A stretch of 38,104 nucleotides of DNA from Betaproteobacteria bacterium (GTDB lineage: Bacteria > Pseudomonadota > Gammaproteobacteria > Burkholderiales > SG8-39), in the NCBI GenBank assembly GCA_005884455.1, contig VBCH01000239.1:1-38104 (forward strand), given 5' to 3'. Of this stretch, positions 12,064 through 19,887 are shown one piece after another (the first letter of the stretch is position 1; every line of letters begins with the position of its first letter). Under the pieces are notes generated by a model, which had not been told where the DNA came from, did not search any database, and saw only the letters and a list, made by a program, of their open reading frames with translations. The position numbers and the translations under genes are program-made.

Positions 12064-13416
12064 CTAGCCCGCGATCAGATGGTGCGCAAGGCCGGCTGCG
12101 CCGCAGGCGAGGATCACTGGGATCATGCCAGTCCGATAGCGCCACAGAGCGGCGAGCGCGGCCAGTCCGAGGAGCGCCGAGAACCATTCGAATCCCCCGG
12201 AAAACCCCGCAGGCCACAACACGTGCCAGGCGAAGAACACGGCGAGGTTGAGGATCACGCCGACCACCGCGGCGGTGATCCCCGTGAGCGGGGCTGTGAA
12301 CCGCAGATTTCCGTGCGTCGATTCCACCAGCGGCCCGCCGAGGAGGATGAACAGGAAAGAGGGGAGAAAGGTGAAGAAGGTCGCCACGGTGCCGCCTGCG
12401 CACCCGGCGAGCGCCAGCGCCTCGGGTCCGAGCGCCGCTTTCGTCCAGGCGCCGACAAACCCCACGAAGGCGACGACCATGATGAGCGGCCCGGGCGTAG
12501 TTTCTCCCAGCGCGAGCCCGTCGATCATCTGTGTCGCGGTCAGCCAGTGGTAGTGCTCCACCGCGCCCTGGTAGACGTAGGGCAGCACCGCGTACGCGCC
12601 GCCGAAGGTGAGCAGCGCCGACTTGGTGAAGAACCAGCCCATTTGCGCGAGCTCGCTCTCCCACCCGAATAGCGCAACGAGCGCACCGAGGGCTGCGCCC
12701 CAGACAGCGAGAAACACCGCAAGAACCAGGACAAAGCGCGACCAGCGGAACAGTGCGTGCGGGGGCGTGGGCGTGGCATCGTCGATCAAGGCTGGTCCGT
12801 AGCCCTTCCCGGCGCCCTCGTGGCCCCCGGTGGAGAACTTTCCCGGAGCGATGCGTCCGCCGAGGTAACCGATAATGCCGGCGCCGAGCACGATGTACGG
12901 AAATGGCGCGTGGAAGGCAAAGATCGCCACGAACGCCGCCAGGCTCATCGTCCACAGCACGGCGTTCTTGAGTGCACGCGACCCGATGCGGTACGCCGCG
13001 AACAGGACGATAGCCGTGACCGCCGGCTTGATTCCGTAGAACAGCCCGGCGACCAGCGGCACGTTTCCGAAGGCAAGGTAGACCCAGGTCAACGCGATAA
13101 GGATGAACAGGGAAGGCAATACGAAAAGGCCGCCGGATATCACTCCGCCCCAGGTGCGGTGCATCATCCAGCCGATATAGGTGGCGAGTTGCTGGGCTTC
13201 CGGTCCCGGCAGAAGCATGCAGTAGTTGAGCGCGTGCAGAAATCGCTTCTCGGAGATCCAGCGTTTCCGCTCGACGAGATCCTGGTGCATGAGCGCGATC
13301 TGCCCGGTCGGGCCGCCGAAGCTGATGAAGCCGAGCTTCAGCCAGTAGCGAAACGCCTCGCTGAAGCCAACCGGTGCGGGGGGCTGATTCGATATCGCGG
13401 ATTTTTCGGTGTCCAC
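12064..13416 (-). CDS. chrA: Chromate transporter ChrA (CHR family)
   Basis: A 450-aa inner-membrane protein of the CHR family, long form with two homologous halves, which expels chromate using the proton motive force. The N-terminal half has FGGPTGQIALMHQDLVERK and LNYCMLLPGPEAQQLATYIGW; the second half has the matching FGGAYAVLPYVYQGAVEHY and DGLALGETTPGPLIMVVAFVG. Around ten to twelve membrane segments are visible. I chose GTG 13416 because GAGGA lies 6 nt upstream of it; an in-frame TTG at 13434 has no such site. It points away from the ModE-type gene and sits between the FDH operon and the Mo/W uptake genes; CHR relatives transport other oxyanions in some bacteria, but substrate cannot be told here. 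Confidence 0.92.
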   Translation of the reverse strand: MDTEKSAISNQPPAPVGFSEAFRYWLKLGFISFGGPTGQIALMHQDLVERKRWISEKRFLHALNYCMLLPGPEAQQLATYIGWMMHRTWGGVISGGLFVLPSLFILIALTWVYLAFGNVPLVAGLFYGIKPAVTAIVLFAAYRIGSRALKNAVLWTMSLAAFVAIFAFHAPFPYIVLGAGIIGYLGGRIAPGKFSTGGHEGAGKGYGPALIDDATPTPPHALFRWSRFVLVLAVFLAVWGAALGALVALFGWESELAQMGWFFTKSALLTFGGAYAVLPYVYQGAVEHYHWLTATQMIDGLALGETTPGPLIMVVAFVGFVGAWTKAALGPEALALAGCAGGTVATFFTFLPSFLFILLGGPLVESTHGNLRFTAPLTGITAAVVGVILNLAVFFAWHVLWPAGFSGGFEWFSALLGLAALAALWRYRTGMIPVILACGAAGLAHHLIAG

Positions 13417-13550
13417 GAGCTGTCCTCGATTCAACGATCACACGCAGCGCTTGGACGGGACACCGTCTAACGAGGGAGTCTGCGATCCCCGAGTGTTGAA
13501 CTATACTGGGACCCCGTTTCTTGAGCAAACGGTGTCGATTTCTTCAACCC
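13417..13550. promoter_or_regulatory. Divergent control region between chrA and the ModE-type gene
   Basis: This 134-bp gap must hold promoters for chrA (minus) and the ModE-type gene (plus). A TATACT hexamer at 13502-13507 is a good -10 for the plus-strand gene, with an expected start near 13514. The matching -35 place (13479-13484, TCTGCG) is poor, so an activator or another arrangement is possible. No convincing chrA promoter was found. Confidence 0.4.
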
Positions 13551-13913
13551 ATGCCCCGAGCGCTCGTTCCGAAAATTCGCATTCTCATCGGCGCAGTCGT
13601 GGCGATCGGTCCGGGGAGGGCCGATTTGCTAGGCGCCATCGCCCGCACCGGGTCGATCTCGGCGGGTGCGCGCGAGATGAAGATGTCGTACCGGCGCGCC
13701 TGGCTGCTGGTCGAGGCGATGAACTCGGCCTTCCGTCGGCCGCTCGTCGAGACGCTCACCGGCGGTGAAGGGGGAGGCGGGGCGCGCGTCACGAAATTGG
13801 GAGAGGAAGTCCTTCGCCGGTACCGTGCCATGGAATCGAGAGCGGCGCGCTCGGTCGCGCCGGAGCTCAAGCGGCTCTCCCGGCTCATCGCGCCGGCGCG
13901 TCGCGCCAGATAG
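13551..13913 (+). CDS. ModE-type winged-helix DNA-binding protein without a molybdate-binding domain
   Basis: A 120-aa cytoplasmic regulator matching the N-terminal DNA-binding half of ModE: LLGAIARTGSISAGAREMKM, YRRAWLLVEAMNSAFRRPLVETLTGGEGGGGA and the C-terminal helix GEEVLRRYRAME. Full-length ModE (about 260 aa) adds two MOP domains that bind molybdate; here the protein ends at residue 120, so it cannot sense the oxyanion that way. Stand-alone forms are known in many proteobacteria. I chose ATG 13551 over the in-frame TTG 13521, since the conserved sequence begins soon after it. Its likely target is the dyad at 13952-13979 in front of the MOT1 gene just downstream; it may also act on nearby Mo genes. 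Confidence 0.88.
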   Translation: MPRALVPKIRILIGAVVAIGPGRADLLGAIARTGSISAGAREMKMSYRRAWLLVEAMNSAFRRPLVETLTGGEGGGGARVTKLGEEVLRRYRAMESRAARSVAPELKRLSRLIAPARRAR

Positions 13914-13915
13914 CT

Positions 13916-13944
13916 TTGCGTTCGATACGGGTCTCGATTAGAAT
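13916..13944 (+). promoter_or_regulatory. Sigma70-like promoter of the MOT1 gene
   Basis: TTGCGT (13916-13921), a 17-nt spacer and TAGAAT (13939-13944, 5 of 6 to TATAAT) make a plausible sigma70 promoter with a start near 13951. It lies directly after the ModE-type gene stop and would put the ModE-box-like dyad right after the transcription start. The -35 keeps only the TTG part. Confidence 0.55.
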
Positions 13945-13951
13945 TCGCGCC

Positions 13952-13979
13952 AGCGTTATATACCAATGAATATCACGAC
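13952..13979. promoter_or_regulatory. ModE-box-like operator over the MOT1 gene start codon
   Basis: The left half AGCGTTATATA (13952-13962), a 6-nt spacer and the right half AATATCACGAC (13969-13979) fit the known ModE dyad (CGnTATATA, 6-7 nt, TATATAnCG). The left core is perfect; the right core has two mismatches. The box covers the ATG at 13966 and sits just after the predicted transcription start, a position suited to repression. A ModE-type gene ends 38 nt upstream. The fit was judged by eye. Confidence 0.6.
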
Positions 13980-15129
13980 ATCGGGTACCCGCCCCGCGAT
14001 CCGCTTCGATCGCAATGAACTGTCTGGTGCGTTCGGTGACATGGGCACGGACGTGCCGCTCATTATCGGCGTTGCCCTCGCATCCCATCTCGACGGCGCA
14101 AGCGTGCTCATTATGTTCGGCGCCATGCAGATTCTGACCGGGCTCGCGTACCGAATGCCGATGCCGGTCCAGCCTCTCAAAGCCATGGCCGCCATTGTCA
14201 TTGCCCAGCAGACTGCGCCGGAGATTCTGTACGGCGCGGGAATCGCAATCGGCCTCACGATGCTGATACTCGCGTCATCGGGCGCGCTCACGTGGCTGGC
14301 GCGCGTCGTTCCCAAAAGCGTGGTGCGCGGCATCCAGTTCGGGCTGGGTCTGCAACTCGCTTCGATCTCCTTGCAGAACTATGTTCGTGCGGAGAGCACG
14401 ACGGGTTACCTCCTGGCCGGCCTCGCGTTTGTTATCGTTGTGCTGCTCTTGGGAAATCGCCGGCTGCCGGCTGCTTTGCCGGTGGTTGCTCTTGGACTCG
14501 CAATCGCGGCGTACCGACTCGACCCAAGCTCGCTGGCAGCAAGCGTGGGCTTGCACCTGCCTTCTCCTCATGTACCGCAACTGTCGGACATAGCTACCGG
14601 GTTCGTGCTGCTCGCGTTGCCGCAGATTCCCCTATCGCTGGGCAACTCTGTTCTTGCCACGCGCCAGCTGGCGCACGACCTCTTTCCCGAGCGCAATCTG
14701 ACTATCCGCAAAATTGGTATCACGTACGCCGCCATGAATCTGATCAGTCCATGGTTGGGCGGTATACCGACGTGCCATGGGTCCGGTGGCATGGCCGGCC
14801 ACTACGCATTTGGCGGCCGCACCGGCGGGTCGGTCATCATTTACGGCCTGATTTTCGTCGCGCTGGGGCTTCTCTTCGGATCAGGGTTCGACCACGTAGT
14901 GCTGGCGTTTCCATTGCCCATACTTGGCGTGCTGCTCCTCTTTGAGGCTCTCTCGTTGGTATGGCTCATCCGTGACACGGCTGATTCGCGCTTGGACTTC
15001 CCCATCGCTGCGCTCGTAGGATTGATAGCGGTCGGGCTGCCGTACGGCTATTTAGTAGGCATGGTTGTGGGCACCATACTCGTGTGGTTGGGCGCGCGGG
15101 TAAACCTCGTAAACCTCGATAAGCACTGA
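13966..15129 (+). CDS. MOT1-family molybdate/sulfate transporter
   Basis: A 387-aa integral membrane protein with about ten to eleven hydrophobic helices, matching the MOT1 branch of SulP-like transporters (high-affinity molybdate carriers in plants and algae; many bacterial members). Diagnostic segments are the N-terminal ELSGAFGDMGTDVPLIIGV, PVQPLKAMAAIVIAQQ, PLSLGNSVLAT, and PTCHGSGGMAGHYAFGGRTGG. It lacks the C-terminal STAS domain of SulP sulfate carriers. Molybdate is the favoured substrate given the ModE-type regulator before it and Tup and cofactor genes after it; sulfate or tungstate cannot be excluded. A ModE-box-like dyad overlaps the start codon. There is no strong Shine-Dalgarno. 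Confidence 0.88.
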   Translation: MNITTSGTRPAIRFDRNELSGAFGDMGTDVPLIIGVALASHLDGASVLIMFGAMQILTGLAYRMPMPVQPLKAMAAIVIAQQTAPEILYGAGIAIGLTMLILASSGALTWLARVVPKSVVRGIQFGLGLQLASISLQNYVRAESTTGYLLAGLAFVIVVLLLGNRRLPAALPVVALGLAIAAYRLDPSSLAASVGLHLPSPHVPQLSDIATGFVLLALPQIPLSLGNSVLATRQLAHDLFPERNLTIRKIGITYAAMNLISPWLGGIPTCHGSGGMAGHYAFGGRTGGSVIIYGLIFVALGLLFGSGFDHVVLAFPLPILGVLLLFEALSLVWLIRDTADSRLDFPIAALVGLIAVGLPYGYLVGMVVGTILVWLGARVNLVNLDKH

Positions 15130-15157: not shown

Positions 15158-15853
15158 ATGTCGGAAGCCCTGACCGCCGCGGTCGAAATGCTGGTTCGGC
15201 TCGACCCCAAGCTGGTCGAGATCGTTCTCCTCAGTCTGCGCGTGAGCCTGTCGGCGGTCGCGATCTCCGCCCTGCTCGGCTTGCCAGTGGGTGCTGCGAT
15301 CGCCGTGGGCAGGTTCCCCGGCCGGCAAACCGTAATCGTATTGCTGAACGCGCTGATGGGCTTGCCACCCGTTGTAGTCGGACTGCTCGTATATCTTTTG
15401 CTCTCTCGCGCCGGCCCGTTGGGTGCGCTCGGAATTCTGTTCACGCCTTTGGCGATGGTCGTCGCGCAATCGATCCTGATCCTGCCGATCATTGCTGCGC
15501 TCTCGCGCCAGGCGATTGACGACGCGTGGCGCGAATACGAGGAGCAACTGCGCTCGCTCGGCGCGCGCCGAATGAACGCGGCGCTGACTCTGCTCTGGGA
15601 CACGCGGTTCTCGCTGCTGACCACGATCCTCGCCGGCTTTGGGCGCGCCGCCGCCGAGGTCGGCGCGGTGATGATCGTCGGCGGAAACATCGACGGCGTG
15701 ACGCGCGTGATGACCACCGCCATCGCGCTCGAAACCAGTAAGGGCGACCTGCCGCTCGCGCTCGGATTGGGGATGATCCTCATCGCCATCGTCATCGCAG
15801 TGAACGCCGCCGCCTATCTGACCAAGGAGCTGGCGCAGCGGCGCTACGGATGA
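15158..15853 (+). CDS. tupB: Tungstate/molybdate ABC transporter permease (TupB-type)
   Basis: A 231-aa permease with five or six membrane helices, forming the inner-membrane channel of a Tup-type oxyanion importer. The ABC-contact loop appears as EYEEQLRSLGARRMNA (residues 127-142), followed by TTILAGFGRAAAEVGAVMIVGGNIDG typical of TupB/WtpB/ModB. It pairs with tupC (4-nt ATGA overlap) and tupA. The ATG at 15158 lacks a good ribosome site. A better-placed ATG at 15147 in another frame opens an 8-codon reading frame ending at 15173, over the tupB start, which might couple translation. Assignment to Tup rather than Mod rests mainly on the downstream binding protein. Confidence 0.9.
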   Translation: MSEALTAAVEMLVRLDPKLVEIVLLSLRVSLSAVAISALLGLPVGAAIAVGRFPGRQTVIVLLNALMGLPPVVVGLLVYLLLSRAGPLGALGILFTPLAMVVAQSILILPIIAALSRQAIDDAWREYEEQLRSLGARRMNAALTLLWDTRFSLLTTILAGFGRAAAEVGAVMIVGGNIDGVTRVMTTAIALETSKGDLPLALGLGMILIAIVIAVNAAAYLTKELAQRRYG

Positions 15854-16575
15854 ACCAGGGCTCCATTCTCCCGCTGCGCCTCGCGGAGGTTTCGTTCACC
15901 GTCGGCGGGCCAGCCATCATCGATCGGGTTTCCCTCGAGATCGACGCGGGACCGAGCACAATCATCCTGGGCGCGAACGGCGCCGGAAAAAGCGTGCTGA
16001 TGCGCCTCATGCACGGGCTGCTGGCTCCTTCCTCGGGCCGAATCGAGTGGAGCTCGCCCGAGCGCCCGGGCGCTCCGAGGAAGCAGGCCATGGTGTTCCA
16101 GCGGCCGGTGATGCTGCGCCGCTCGGCCTACGCCAACGTAGCGTACGCACTGAAGATCGCCGGAATCCTCGAGCCCCGCCGCGGGGCGCTGGTGCGCGAG
16201 GCGCTCGATAGCGTCGGGCTCTCGCATCTTGCGCGTCGGCCGGCTCGCGTGCTGTCTGGCGGCGAGCAGCAGCGGCTCGCGCTCGCCCGGGCCTGGGCGC
16301 TGCACCCGGAAGTGCTGTTCCTCGACGAGCCTACCGCCAGCCTCGATCCGAGCGCGACGCGGGAGATCGAGTCCGTGATCAAGGCTTTCGACGCTGCAGG
16401 CACGAAAGTGGTCATGGCAACGCACAACCTTGGCCAGGCGCGGCGCCTGGGCGACGAGATCCTGTTTCTCGACCAGGGACGGCTCGTCGAGCGAGCGCCG
16501 GTCGTGGAATTCTTCGCCAGACCCAAGTCGGAGCAAGCCGCTGCTTTCATCAAAGGAGAGCTACCTTGGACCTGA
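15850..16575 (+). CDS. tupC: Tungstate/molybdate ABC transporter ATP-binding protein (TupC-type)
   Basis: A 241-aa ATPase powering the Tup importer at the inner face of the membrane. It has Walker A GANGAGKS (41-48), the Q-loop in VFQRPVML (82-89), the signature LSGGEQQ (135-141), Walker B VLFLDEP (155-161), a D-loop in SLDP and the switch His in ATHNLGQARRLGDE. It lacks the C-terminal MOP/TOBE domain of ModC, so it resembles TupC rather than ModC and should not sense molybdate by itself. It overlaps tupB by 4 nt and tupA by 10 nt. Confidence 0.93.
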   Translation: MNQGSILPLRLAEVSFTVGGPAIIDRVSLEIDAGPSTIILGANGAGKSVLMRLMHGLLAPSSGRIEWSSPERPGAPRKQAMVFQRPVMLRRSAYANVAYALKIAGILEPRRGALVREALDSVGLSHLARRPARVLSGGEQQRLALARAWALHPEVLFLDEPTASLDPSATREIESVIKAFDAAGTKVVMATHNLGQARRLGDEILFLDQGRLVERAPVVEFFARPKSEQAAAFIKGELPWT

Positions 16576-17378
16576 TACGCGGACCGTTGTTGCTCGCCGC
16601 GTCGCTCGCCGCCTTGCCCGCCCTGGCGCAGGAAAAGTTCATCGTCGTCGCCTCGACGACCTCGACCGAGCAGTCGGGCCTCTTCGGCCACATCCTGCCA
16701 GTTTTCCAGAAGAAGACCGGCATCCAGGTGCGCGTGGTCGCGCTCGGCACGGGGCAGGCGCTCGATCTCGCGCGCCGCGGCGACGCAGACGTGGTCTTCG
16801 TGCACGCTCGATCGGCCGAGGAGAAATTCCTCGCCGAAGGCCAGGGCGTCAGGCGCTTCGACGTCATGTACAACGATTTCGTCCTGATCGGCCCGAGGGC
16901 AGATCCGGCGAAGGTCTCGGGCGGCAGGGACATCCTCGACGCCTTGAAAAAGATCAAGGCTGCGGGCGCACCGTTCGTGTCGCGAGGCGACAAGAGCGGT
17001 ACGCACCTCGTCGAGCTCGATCTGTGGGAGCAGGCGGGGATCGACATCGTCACGGAAAAGGGGCCGTGGTACCGCGACACCGGCCAGGGCATGGGCCCGG
17101 CGCTCAACACCGCGGCGGCGATGAGCGCCTACATTCTCGCCGACCGCGGCACCTGGATCTCGTTCAAGAATCGCGGCGAGCTCGCCATTACGGTCGAAGG
17201 CGACAAGCGCCTGTTCAACCAGTACGGGGTGATGCTGGTGAATCCCGCCAAGCATCCCAACGTGAAAAAAGACCTTGGCCAGGCGTTTGTCGACTGGGTC
17301 GTGTCGCCCGGGGGGCAGAAGACGATCGCCGAGTACAAGATCGGCGGCGAGCAGCTGTTCTTCCCGAACGCGAAGTGA
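16566..17378 (+). CDS. tupA: Tungstate-binding periplasmic protein (TupA-type)
   Basis: A 270-aa exported solute-binding protein. The start is TTG 16566, preceded by AAAGGAGAG and overlapping tupC by 10 nt; the signal peptide (residues 1-21) follows directly. The mature protein opens with VVASTTSTEQSGLFG (28-41), the oxyanion-binding loop of TupA proteins, and has FVSRGDKSGTH, whose Arg is a ligand in characterised TupA. RRGDADVVFVHA and the C-terminal VSPGGQKTIAEYKIGGEQLF also fit. TupA proteins prefer tungstate strongly over molybdate; preference here is inferred from family. Together with FDH genes this suggests tungsten supply to, or tungsten competition at, the FDH. Confidence 0.92.
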   Translation: MDLIRGPLLLAASLAALPALAQEKFIVVASTTSTEQSGLFGHILPVFQKKTGIQVRVVALGTGQALDLARRGDADVVFVHARSAEEKFLAEGQGVRRFDVMYNDFVLIGPRADPAKVSGGRDILDALKKIKAAGAPFVSRGDKSGTHLVELDLWEQAGIDIVTEKGPWYRDTGQGMGPALNTAAAMSAYILADRGTWISFKNRGELAITVEGDKRLFNQYGVMLVNPAKHPNVKKDLGQAFVDWVVSPGGQKTIAEYKIGGEQLFFPNAK

Positions 17379-17415
17379 GCGGTCCGCTCGCTATATCCGG
17401 TTGGGAATGACGCCC

Positions 17416-17463: not shown

Positions 17464-17958
17464 ATGAAAATATTCGGATTCGCGGGATGGTCGGGTAGCG
17501 GCAAGACCACTTTGATCGAGCAGCTCATTCCGCGCTTCGTCAAACGCGGTCTCAGGGTATCGATGATCAAACACGCGCATCACAGCTTCGACGTTGACCA
17601 ACCGGGCAAGGATTCTTACCGCCACCGCCAGGCCGGCTGCAGCGAGGTCATGGTCGTCTCCGACAGACGCTGGGTCATCATGCACGAGCTGCGCGGAGAG
17701 CGTGAGCCTTGTCTTGAGGACCAGATTGAGCGCATTTCGCCCTGCGATCTGCTGCTCGTCGAAGGCCACAAGCATCATCCTCTGCCGAAGCTCGAAATCT
17801 GGCGCAAGGACAACGGCAAGCCCTTGCTGCATCCGGATGATGCGCACATCGTTGCGATCGCTGCGGATGCGCCGCTTGAAACGAAGCTGCCCCGCTTCGA
17901 TCTCAACGATCACGAGGGTATCGAAGAGTTCATCTTGAACTACAACGGATTCAGATGA
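17464..17958 (+). CDS. mobB: Molybdopterin-guanine dinucleotide biosynthesis adaptor MobB
   Basis: A 164-aa P-loop GTP-binding protein that assists MobA in making MGD, although it is not essential for it in E. coli. It shows GWSGSGKTTL (Walker A, 8-17), IKHAHHSFDVDQPGKDSYRHRQAG (metal/nucleotide region, typical of MobB), and DLLLVEGHKHHPLPKLEIWR (Walker B-like part). Length matches the family. It leads the operon mobB-moeA-moaD-moaE and overlaps moeA by 4 nt (ATGA). The leader holds a 7-bp hairpin and no clear ribosome site. Confidence 0.95.
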   Translation: MKIFGFAGWSGSGKTTLIEQLIPRFVKRGLRVSMIKHAHHSFDVDQPGKDSYRHRQAGCSEVMVVSDRRWVIMHELRGEREPCLEDQIERISPCDLLLVEGHKHHPLPKLEIWRKDNGKPLLHPDDAHIVAIAADAPLETKLPRFDLNDHEGIEEFILNYNGFR

Positions 17959-19160
17959 ACAAAGGCCTGCTCAACGTCGACGAAGCGCTCGAGCTACTTC
18001 TCGCCGGCGCGCGCCCGGTCAGCGAAACCGAGGCGGTGCCGACCCTCTCGGCGACGGGCAGGGTGCTCGCCGCGGCGCAGCGCTCGACGATGAACGTGCC
18101 GCCCATGGACAACAGCGCGATGGACGGTTACGCCGTGCGGCTCGCCGATCTCAAGGGACCGCAACCCCGGCTCAAGGTCTCCCAGAAAATCCCCGCGGGC
18201 TCGACGGGTAAGGCGCTCGCTCCGGGGACCGCGGCGCGCATTTTCACGGGGGCGCCGATTCCCGCGGGGGCGGACGCCATCGTGATGCAGGAGCATTGCG
18301 TGCAGGAAGGCGACGAGGTCGTGGTGAGGAAGGTTCCGGCGCGGGGCGAGTGGATCAGGCTCACCGGCAGCGATATTCGCGCGGGCGGGGAGGTGCTTCC
18401 TGCGGGACTGCGCCTGCGCCCGCAGGACACCGGGCTCGCCGCGTCGGTCGGCATCGCGTCGCTTCCTGTCCGTCGGCGCGTGCGCCTCGGGTTGCTTTTT
18501 ACCGGCGACGAGCTCGTCATGCCGGGGGATCCCCTGCCGCCCGGGCGCATCTACAACTCGAACCGTTTTACCCTGAACGGGCTTGCGGGCATCTTCGGGT
18601 GCGAGACCCGCGACTACGGGATCGTTCCCGATTCGCTGCCCGCGACGCGAGAAGTGCTGCGGCGCGCCGCCGCCGAGTGCGATGTGATCGTCACGAGCGG
18701 CGGCGTCTCGGTGGGCGAAGCGGATTTCGTCAAGCCCGCCGTCGAGGCCGAAGGCGAGCTCCTCATGTGGAAGATCGCCATGAAGCCCGGGCGGCCGCTC
18801 GCGTTCGGGCGGGTGGGCAAAGCGAATTTCATCGGGCTCCCGGGAAATCCGGTTTCGAGCTTCGTGACTTTCCTCGTGTTCGTCCGGCCGTTTCTGCTGA
18901 GAACACAGGGAATCACCGATGTGCAAGCCCACGCGCTTCCCGTGCGTGCGGATTTTGAATGGCCCGAACCCGATCTCCGGCGCGAGTTTCTGCGCGTAAA
19001 ATGGAACGCCCGCGGCGGGCTCGATCTTTATCCCACGCAGGACTCCGCGGTGCTGATGTCCACCGCGTGGGCGGACGGCCTGGTCGACAATCCGGCCGAC
19101 CATCCGATCCGCGCCGGCGACATGGTGAAGTTCATGCCGTATTCGGAGCTGTATCGATGA
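17955..19160 (+). CDS. moeA: Molybdopterin molybdenumtransferase MoeA
   Basis: A 401-aa enzyme inserting molybdate into adenylated molybdopterin. Family segments are MDNSAMDGYAVR (start of domain 1), IFTGAPIPAGADAIVMQEH, LFTGDELVMPGDPLPPGRIYNSN, the MPT/nucleotide-binding TSGGVSVGEADF, KIAMKPGRPLAFG and GLPGNPVSSFVTF. The length and the four-domain order match E. coli MoeA (411 aa). It is coupled by 4-nt overlaps to mobB before it and moaD after it. Nothing appears truncated. A tungsten-inserting role cannot be excluded, since MoeA paralogs can serve either metal. Confidence 0.96.
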   Translation: MNKGLLNVDEALELLLAGARPVSETEAVPTLSATGRVLAAAQRSTMNVPPMDNSAMDGYAVRLADLKGPQPRLKVSQKIPAGSTGKALAPGTAARIFTGAPIPAGADAIVMQEHCVQEGDEVVVRKVPARGEWIRLTGSDIRAGGEVLPAGLRLRPQDTGLAASVGIASLPVRRRVRLGLLFTGDELVMPGDPLPPGRIYNSNRFTLNGLAGIFGCETRDYGIVPDSLPATREVLRRAAAECDVIVTSGGVSVGEADFVKPAVEAEGELLMWKIAMKPGRPLAFGRVGKANFIGLPGNPVSSFVTFLVFVRPFLLRTQGITDVQAHALPVRADFEWPEPDLRREFLRVKWNARGGLDLYPTQDSAVLMSTAWADGLVDNPADHPIRAGDMVKFMPYSELYR

Positions 19161-19414
19161 AGGTCAAAGTCCTCTATCTGGCGAGCCTGCGCGAGCAGCT
19201 GGGCAAACCCGGCGAAGATCTCGAAATCCCGCCCGCGACATCCACGGTTGCGGGCTTGCGCACGCTGCTTATGGCCCGAGGGGGTGCTTGGCACACGGCG
19301 CTCGCGCAAGGGCGGGCCCTGCGCGTCGCCGTCAACCAGGAAATGGCGCAGCCGACGACGTCCGTGAAGCCGGGCGACGAAGTCGCGTTTTTTCCGCCGG
19401 TGACCGGAGGTTGA
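19157..19414 (+). CDS. moaD: Molybdopterin synthase small subunit MoaD
   Basis: An 85-aa ubiquitin-like sulfur carrier; its C-terminal Gly-Gly is thiocarboxylated and donates sulfur for the MPT dithiolene. The product ends in FFPPVTGG, the hallmark of MoaD, and begins with a beta-strand VKVLYLASLREQLG. The length matches E. coli MoaD (81 aa). ATG 19157 overlaps the moeA stop by 4 nt and has GGAG 8 nt upstream. Only 2 nt separate it from moaE, its partner in MPT synthase. The activating enzyme MoeB is not in the window. Confidence 0.95.
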   Translation: MKVKVLYLASLREQLGKPGEDLEIPPATSTVAGLRTLLMARGGAWHTALAQGRALRVAVNQEMAQPTTSVKPGDEVAFFPPVTGG

Positions 19415-19416
19415 CC

Positions 19417-19887
19417 GTGCCGGTGCGCATCCAGACCAAGGACTTCGACGCGGGTGCCGAGATAGCGGCGCTGCGGCGCGGCAACCCCAAGATCGGCGCG
19501 GTGGCGAGCTTTATCGGCTTGTGCCGTGACGTCAACGACGGTGATGTGGTGACGAAGATGACGCTGGAGCACTATCCCGGCATGACCGAGAAGGCGCTCG
19601 AAAAGATCGTCGCCGAAGCGAAAACCCGCTGGGACGTGATGGAAGCGCTCGTGGTTCACCGCGTCGGCGAGCTGAAACCCGGCGATCAGATCGTGCTCGT
19701 AGTGATCACCGGCGCCCATCGCGGCGAGGCCTTTGCCGCCTGCGAATTCATCATGGACTACCTCAAGACCCGCGCGCCGTTTTGGAAGAAGGAAGAAACT
19801 CCGCAGGGAGCGCGCTGGGTCGAAGCGCGAGCCTCCGACGACGAGGCCGCGCAGCGCTGGGAGCCGCCGAAGTCGAGCGCCGCCTGA
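19417..19887 (+). CDS. moaE: Molybdopterin synthase catalytic subunit MoaE
   Basis: A 156-aa subunit which, with MoaD, converts precursor Z (cPMP) into molybdopterin. It shows GAVASFIGLCRDVNDGD (substrate region), LEHYPGMTEKALEKIVAEA, VVHRVGELKPGDQIVLVVI, HRGEAFAACEFIMDYLKTRAPFWKKE with the catalytic lysines of the family, and the final RWVEA. I chose GTG 19417, 2 nt after moaD, because homology begins with the residues right after it; in-frame upstream sequence lies over moaD in another frame. The gene ends 19 nt before an antiporter gene. Confidence 0.95.
   Translation: MPVRIQTKDFDAGAEIAALRRGNPKIGAVASFIGLCRDVNDGDVVTKMTLEHYPGMTEKALEKIVAEAKTRWDVMEALVVHRVGELKPGDQIVLVVITGAHRGEAFAACEFIMDYLKTRAPFWKKEETPQGARWVEARASDDEAAQRWEPPKSSAA

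Follow-up and report, generated by a model that had tools for sequence, protein, structure and literature searches.

The 38,104-nt stretch of betaproteobacterial DNA analysed here (the window) contains a ModE-type operator, CGTTATATA-CCAATG-AATATCACG (positions 13954–13977, assigned to neither strand), between the gene of a one-domain ModE protein and a series of genes for molybdate/tungstate (Mo/W) uptake and molybdenum cofactor (Moco) synthesis. Judged by sequence, the ModE-type regulator of the adjacent gene very probably binds to this operator. In our view, the box is likely occupied, just downstream of the −10 element, by a dimer of the one-domain ModE, which would repress the MOT1-tupBCA-mobB-moeA-moaD-moaE genes.

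Operator sequence and gene context

The modE gene (13551–13913, plus strand; assigned by TIGR00637, PF00126 and a structural model) encodes a 120-aa protein comprising the winged HTH only, which is the predicted binder of the operator. Downstream on the same strand lie the genes for a MOT1-family molybdate transporter, whose open reading frame begins in the operator spacer (13966–15129; PF16983, 187.1 bits), a tupB-like ABC permease (15158–15853; NF038017 above its cut-off and NF041773 TupB at 155.6 bits, below the cut-off of 320), a tupC-like ABC ATPase without a TOBE domain (15850–16575; PF00005, 99.1 bits), and a tupA-like tungstate/molybdate-binding protein (16566–17378; NF041772 TupA at 233.3 bits, below the cut-off of 400), the Tup names being given from matches below the strict NCBI cut-offs. 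They are followed by mobB (17464–17958; PF03205, 171.3 bits, and TIGR00176 above cut-off), moeA (17955–19160; PF03453, PF00994, and PF03454), moaD (19157–19414; ThiS family, 67.7 bits), and moaE (19414–19887, start approximate; PF02391, 134.8 bits), also on the plus strand. The genes from MOT1 through moaE are closely spaced on one strand, and we infer that they form an operon. On the opposite side, modE is preceded by a chromate transporter gene (12064–13434, minus strand), with formate-dehydrogenase-type genes farther upstream. A chrB-b cis-regulatory RNA motif (RF03086; 13444–13491, minus strand; 54.8 bits against a gathering score of 36.5) lies just ahead of the chromate transporter gene, in a region that the modE promoter also occupies.

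Read directly from the sequence, the operator consists of a left half CGTTATATA (13954–13962), the spacer CCAATG (13963–13968), which contains the ATG at 13966–13968, and a right half AATATCACG (13969–13977). It thus takes the form CGTTATATA-N6-aATATcACG and matches 16 of the 18 fixed positions of the ModE box CGTTATATA-N6-TATATAACG, with both mismatches in the right half. The longer consensus ATCGNTATATA-N6-TATATANCGAT, taken from an excerpt of PMC545781, adds outer AT/AT positions at which the operator has two further mismatches. The palindrome CGNTATATA-N6-TATATANCG that characterizes ModE boxes is thus present with these two core mismatches.

At up to three mismatches, this is the only match in the window (0.00 expected from 100 shuffles) and the sole palindromic site in the 3,616,050-base assembly, which is 96% complete, the reversed-pattern control returning 0 sites. 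The hits scattered over unrelated genes that the first-pass annotation had named as a refutation are thus absent at this threshold. A weight matrix derived from 26 boxes of relatives in other genera of the family, which were selected by their likeness to the consensus, scores the operator at 32.3 bits, compared with 9.3 for the next best place in the window and 15.3 for the best of 20 million random 24-mers of 64% G+C. As befits a ModE box, the site stands at Mo/W uptake and Moco genes without being scattered over the genome, and it is conserved among relatives together with the modE gene, more weakly outside the family. As a sequence element, the ModE-type box is real. The promoter itself is AT-rich and could in principle yield an AT-rich dyad by chance; however, the shuffle, assembly, and weight-matrix statistics, together with the family-locus and genome-linkage statistics given below, make such a coincidence vanishingly improbable.

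Two further places of the assembly deserve mention. A weak second ModE-like site, CGCTATATCCGGTTGGGAATGACG (17389–17412), with six mismatches and a weight-matrix score of 9.3, sits in the gap between the tupA-like gene and mobB; the congeneric genome G093 differs from it at 3 of the 24 bases, in the central part of the site. A partial gene for a ModA-like binding protein stands at a contig edge (276 nt, L266 1–276) and scores 27.2 bits (cut-off 62.5) and 51 bits with SBP_bac_11; a second operator could lie upstream of it, in the missing DNA.

Predicted promoter and start codon of the MOT1 gene

The operator is preceded by a weak predicted −35 hexamer TTGCGT (13916–13921, plus strand; 3/6 matches to TTGACA) and a predicted −10 hexamer TAGAAT (13939–13944, plus strand; 5/6 matches to TATAAT), separated by 17 nt. 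These hexamers, and the dyad with its perfect left core and two-mismatch right core, read as originally described. A promoter scan returned nothing, TTGCGT falling below the scan threshold because it matches at only three of six positions, and the −10 hexamer is kept as a predicted element solely because it is conserved. The modE-MOT1 junction is found in two of the five other genomes of the genus (G093 and G096), both of which keep the box with two mismatches each. Relative to the window, the left half of the box and both hexamers are unchanged in these genomes and a single right-half change occurs, in G096 only, whereas the remaining changes fall in the variable spacer between the hexamers, the stretch from the −10 hexamer to the box, and the box spacer. 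TAGAAT lies 9 nt ahead of the box in G093 and G096 and 7 nt ahead of it in G050 and G047; in G084, TAGGAT stands 6 nt ahead. The earlier proposal of a ModE-type operator immediately behind a promoter, beside a ModE-type gene and before Mo/W uptake genes, is therefore borne out by an arrangement that is unique in the genome and kept in relatives.

Transcription is predicted to start at about 13951–13953, so that the dyad would begin near +2; a dimer at this position would keep RNA polymerase off the promoter or prevent its escape. Activators seldom work from positions downstream of a −10 element, and here the −10 hexamer precedes the box, which covers the predicted start. This makes it quite improbable that box-bound ModE promotes expression of the operon, either as an activator or in a dual role, although E. 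coli ModE is reported to activate moaABCDE (excerpt of PMC11980592). A constant −10 element upstream of the box was considered as a general rule and rejected, being seen in only 6 of 26 family loci: a 5/6 match in L060–L063 and L089, and TAGGAT (4/6) in L064. As an idea only, the TATATT of the box itself may serve as the −10 element in the other loci.

The first-pass annotation placed the box over the MOT1 start codon, and in this genome the overlap is real. The ATG at 13966 is the first ATG, GTG, or TTG past the in-frame stop, and the following one in frame comes after a further 75 nt, within the stretch aligned by MOT1 homologues, the full matches of which start at query residues 3–16. Thus, the ATG in the operator spacer is the only conventional start ahead of the conserved part of MOT1 in this genome. 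The predicted 5′ leader of about 13–15 nt has no Shine-Dalgarno sequence; the window lacks any Shine-Dalgarno-like stretch here and is 49 bases shorter in this region than G096, through either a true deletion or an assembly fault. The overlap is not conserved, however. By eye, G093 has the box spacer CCACCG, with an AGGAGG stretch and a GTG start downstream of the box, and G096 has the spacer CCACTG, with an AGAAGG stretch and an ATG start downstream of the box. Since the in-box ATG is absent from both genomes, the overlap is no conserved part of the arrangement; it looks like a local and recent feature of this genome, and the start codon in the spacer is no part of the mechanism.

We also rejected the in-box start codon as a conserved design on a wider scale: boxes elsewhere with in-frame starts have downstream starts as well, these loci having been read by eye and as a set; spacers with the palindrome CCATGG, also judged by eye, are apparently no starts. 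In two Billgrantia loci (L104 and L140), ModE-like boxes lie about 2.6–2.8 kb from modE with their right half overlapping or abutting an ATG; L104 has two such ATG-adjoining boxes, 27 nt apart.

With the start codon placed in the dyad loop, one might suppose that the palindrome acts in RNA, as a riboswitch-like element or as a hairpin that hides the start codon. This is very improbable: the hairpin reaches only −1.2 kcal/mol and is equalled by 47 of 200 shuffles, longer stretches give z values of 0.51 and 0.93, and the start codon lies outside the box in G093 and G096. No Rfam match was found at the operator, and the Moco riboswitch (RF01055) was found in neither the window nor the assembly. 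The suggestion that translation initiation is blocked is likewise unsupported, as the hairpin is no stronger than those of shuffles and a repressor bound to DNA does not act on the mRNA.

One-domain ModE and its linkage with the box

The modE product falls just short of the cut-offs of both families to which it is assigned, TIGR00637 (90.7 bits, cut-off 98.5) and PF00126 (HTH_1; 25.3 bits, cut-off 26.6). Its AlphaFold2 model (mean pLDDT 88.8) comprises the ModE winged HTH and the following helix only, and is closest to PDB 2IJL (TM-score 0.81, 40% identity), with the N-terminal domain of E. coli ModE (1B9M) also matching. The protein shares the winged HTH with classical ModE; the C-terminal TOBE (Mop) domains of the latter are absent from it, the chain ending at residue 120. 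Instead, it shows the hallmarks of one-domain ModE proteins, namely an HTH alone with a GPG(K/R) and SYRRAW signature. The recognition-helix region SY(R/K)xAW is common to one-domain and full-length proteins, being of the SYRRAW type in the former and YKxAWDA in the latter. In contrast, GPG(K/R/Q) before the first helix occurs in 126 of 132 short ModE proteins, a set in which a few loci are counted twice (five named duplicates and the window), and in 0 of 15 full-length ModE proteins, these being the ones found in the class; the looser GxG(K/R) occurs in 130/132 and 6/15, respectively. The near-invariant GPGK/GPGR corresponds to residues 20–23 of the window protein and may be where a ligand or partner binds.

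No TOBE domain (PF03459) was detected in the assembly at E 0.001, whereas 12 of 14 control genomes were positive; for a 96% complete draft, this is strong but not final evidence of absence. Among the 98 family genomes, 60 have a TOBE match, although some of the weak matches probably sit in unrelated ABC ATPases. Fourteen of the 25 family genomes with both modE and the box have no TOBE match, including G042 (98% complete) and the genome of the window; the matches in G093 and G096 are marginal (22.3 and 21.6 bits, cut-off 22.3). Because neither the regulator nor the assembly has a detectable TOBE domain, classical control by ModE and molybdate cannot be assumed: of the ModE control proposed earlier, the operator and the neighboring ModE-type gene stand, whereas the classical molybdate response does not follow from a regulator without TOBE.

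The search of the 98 family genomes for ModE yielded 40 genomes with a one-domain ModE, chosen from the match list by identity and typed by hand; G061, where a ModE frame carries two TOBE matches, was counted as lacking one-domain modE. The corresponding 40 loci were fetched, and in 37 of them the sequence continues for 124 nt past modE. In 23 of these 37 loci, a box with up to three mismatches starts within 101 nt after the modE stop (0.02 expected), and in 25 there is one with up to four (0.04 expected), the expected counts being those that the box frequency in the rest of these loci would give. Ahead of modE, the adjoining 124 nt contain 0 and 1 boxes at these thresholds, respectively. A genome-wide pattern search gave 32 sites in 27 of the 98 genomes, compared with two reversed-control sites. 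The box is present in 25 of the 40 genomes with one-domain modE and in 2 of the 58 others (Fisher p 6.7e-11, kinship ignored); the remaining 15 modE-carrying genomes have no box at two mismatches, and in two of them modE runs off the contig.

By our own count, 30 of the 32 sites adjoin Mo/W genes, and 24 of these follow modE at a distance of no more than 100 nt. The other six are located ahead of modA in G030, G034, G035, and G031 (TIGR01256 above cut-off), ahead of moeA in G032, and between two tupA-like genes in G017; the G036 site and the second G047 site have no Mo/W neighbor in the region viewed. Among the genes found behind post-modE boxes are modA and moeA, as well as, in one group, a gene for a TauE/SafE-type membrane protein. 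In this group (L081, L077, L092, L094, and similar loci), the TauE/SafE gene (PF01925, tested in L081) separates the box from mobB-moeA, and tupBCA precedes modE; the TauE/SafE protein is a candidate transporter of Mo, W, or sulfur oxyanions.

None of the 22 MOT1 loci outside the genus, some of them truncated, has a site at up to five mismatches; therefore, the box goes with modE and not with MOT1. Beyond the family, we examined named loci of beta-, alpha-, and gammaproteobacteria, taken as the best 80 of 565 confirmed places found with a one-domain query; all 80 are one-domain, which is biased by the query and so gives no measure of the share of full-length proteins. Among the 75 non-duplicate loci, a box starts within 101 nt after modE in 6 cases at up to three mismatches and in 14 at up to four, and three loci have a box before modE. 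The boxless modE loci may either read other motifs or have their regulators act elsewhere.

Predicted regulation and relation to known ModE systems

Under the repression model that we favor, a dimer of the 13551–13913 product would bind the dyad, and the operon would be repressed when Mo/W, or their cofactor, suffices. Since no TOBE domain was found, sensing would be direct, by the HTH protein, or via another partner, or absent, in the sense of a repressor whose level alone sets expression. This last variant, in which the degree of repression follows the amount of a metal-blind one-domain ModE and any Mo/W response has another origin, fits the missing TOBE in this assembly and in the 14 family genomes noted above, and E. 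coli ModE truncated at its C-terminus can repress in the absence of molybdate. We nevertheless regard it as rather unlikely: the strong conservation of the modE-box pair over genera suggests a regulated switch, and the clade-specific GPG(K/R/Q) could be a ligand or partner site. More boldly, and only tentatively, it may be proposed that one-domain ModE senses Mo/W or the cofactor without TOBE, for example through the GPGK helix cap, and switches a canonical box alone, and that in this genome the operator spacer took over a lost start codon, giving a near-leaderless mRNA. If such TOBE-less sensing holds true, the TOBE part of ModE would be an optional add-on.

With the E. coli-type ModE box ATCGNTATATA-N6-TATATANCGAT, the operator shares the half-site sequence, the 6-nt spacing, and the position at the promoter of a Mo-uptake gene; however, the reader here is predicted to be a TOBE-less ModE, and the regulated genes form a putative MOT1-Tup operon instead of modABC. 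Likewise, full-length E. coli ModE (PDB 1B9M, 1O7L) matches over the N-terminal winged HTH (residues ~20–96) and differs in its two molybdate-binding TOBE domains and in the helix YKxAWDA, which is YRRAW here. The closest solved structure, the putative ModE of Agrobacterium tumefaciens (2IJL), is one-domain too, the comparison being by structure alone. Single-domain ModE proteins of Desulfovibrio and Desulfotalea, as described in an excerpt of Rodionov et al. (2004; PMC545781), resemble the present regulator in having only the DNA-binding domain and in adjoining Mo uptake genes. According to the same excerpt, their predicted motif is CGGTCACG-N14-CGTGACCG, no E. coli-type box having been found, and those bacteria have MOP domains within chimeric integrases; in contrast, the E. 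coli-type box is kept here and MOP domains were found nowhere in this assembly. A single-domain ModE tied to a canonical box in TOBE-less genomes was not found in the open-licence literature searched, and we claim no priority.

The box and the one-domain ModE are each of known kinds; the pairing of a canonical box with a ModE that lacks the sensor, in a genome seemingly free of TOBE, departs modestly from them. The operator is an ordinary case of a known class, yet it fixes the predicted DNA target of a widespread sensorless ModE type. The mechanism by which single-domain ModE senses Mo was called 'not clear' by the authors of the 2004 study (excerpt of PMC545781); with a target, a promoter, and a TOBE-free genome now named, that question reduces to a simple binding experiment.
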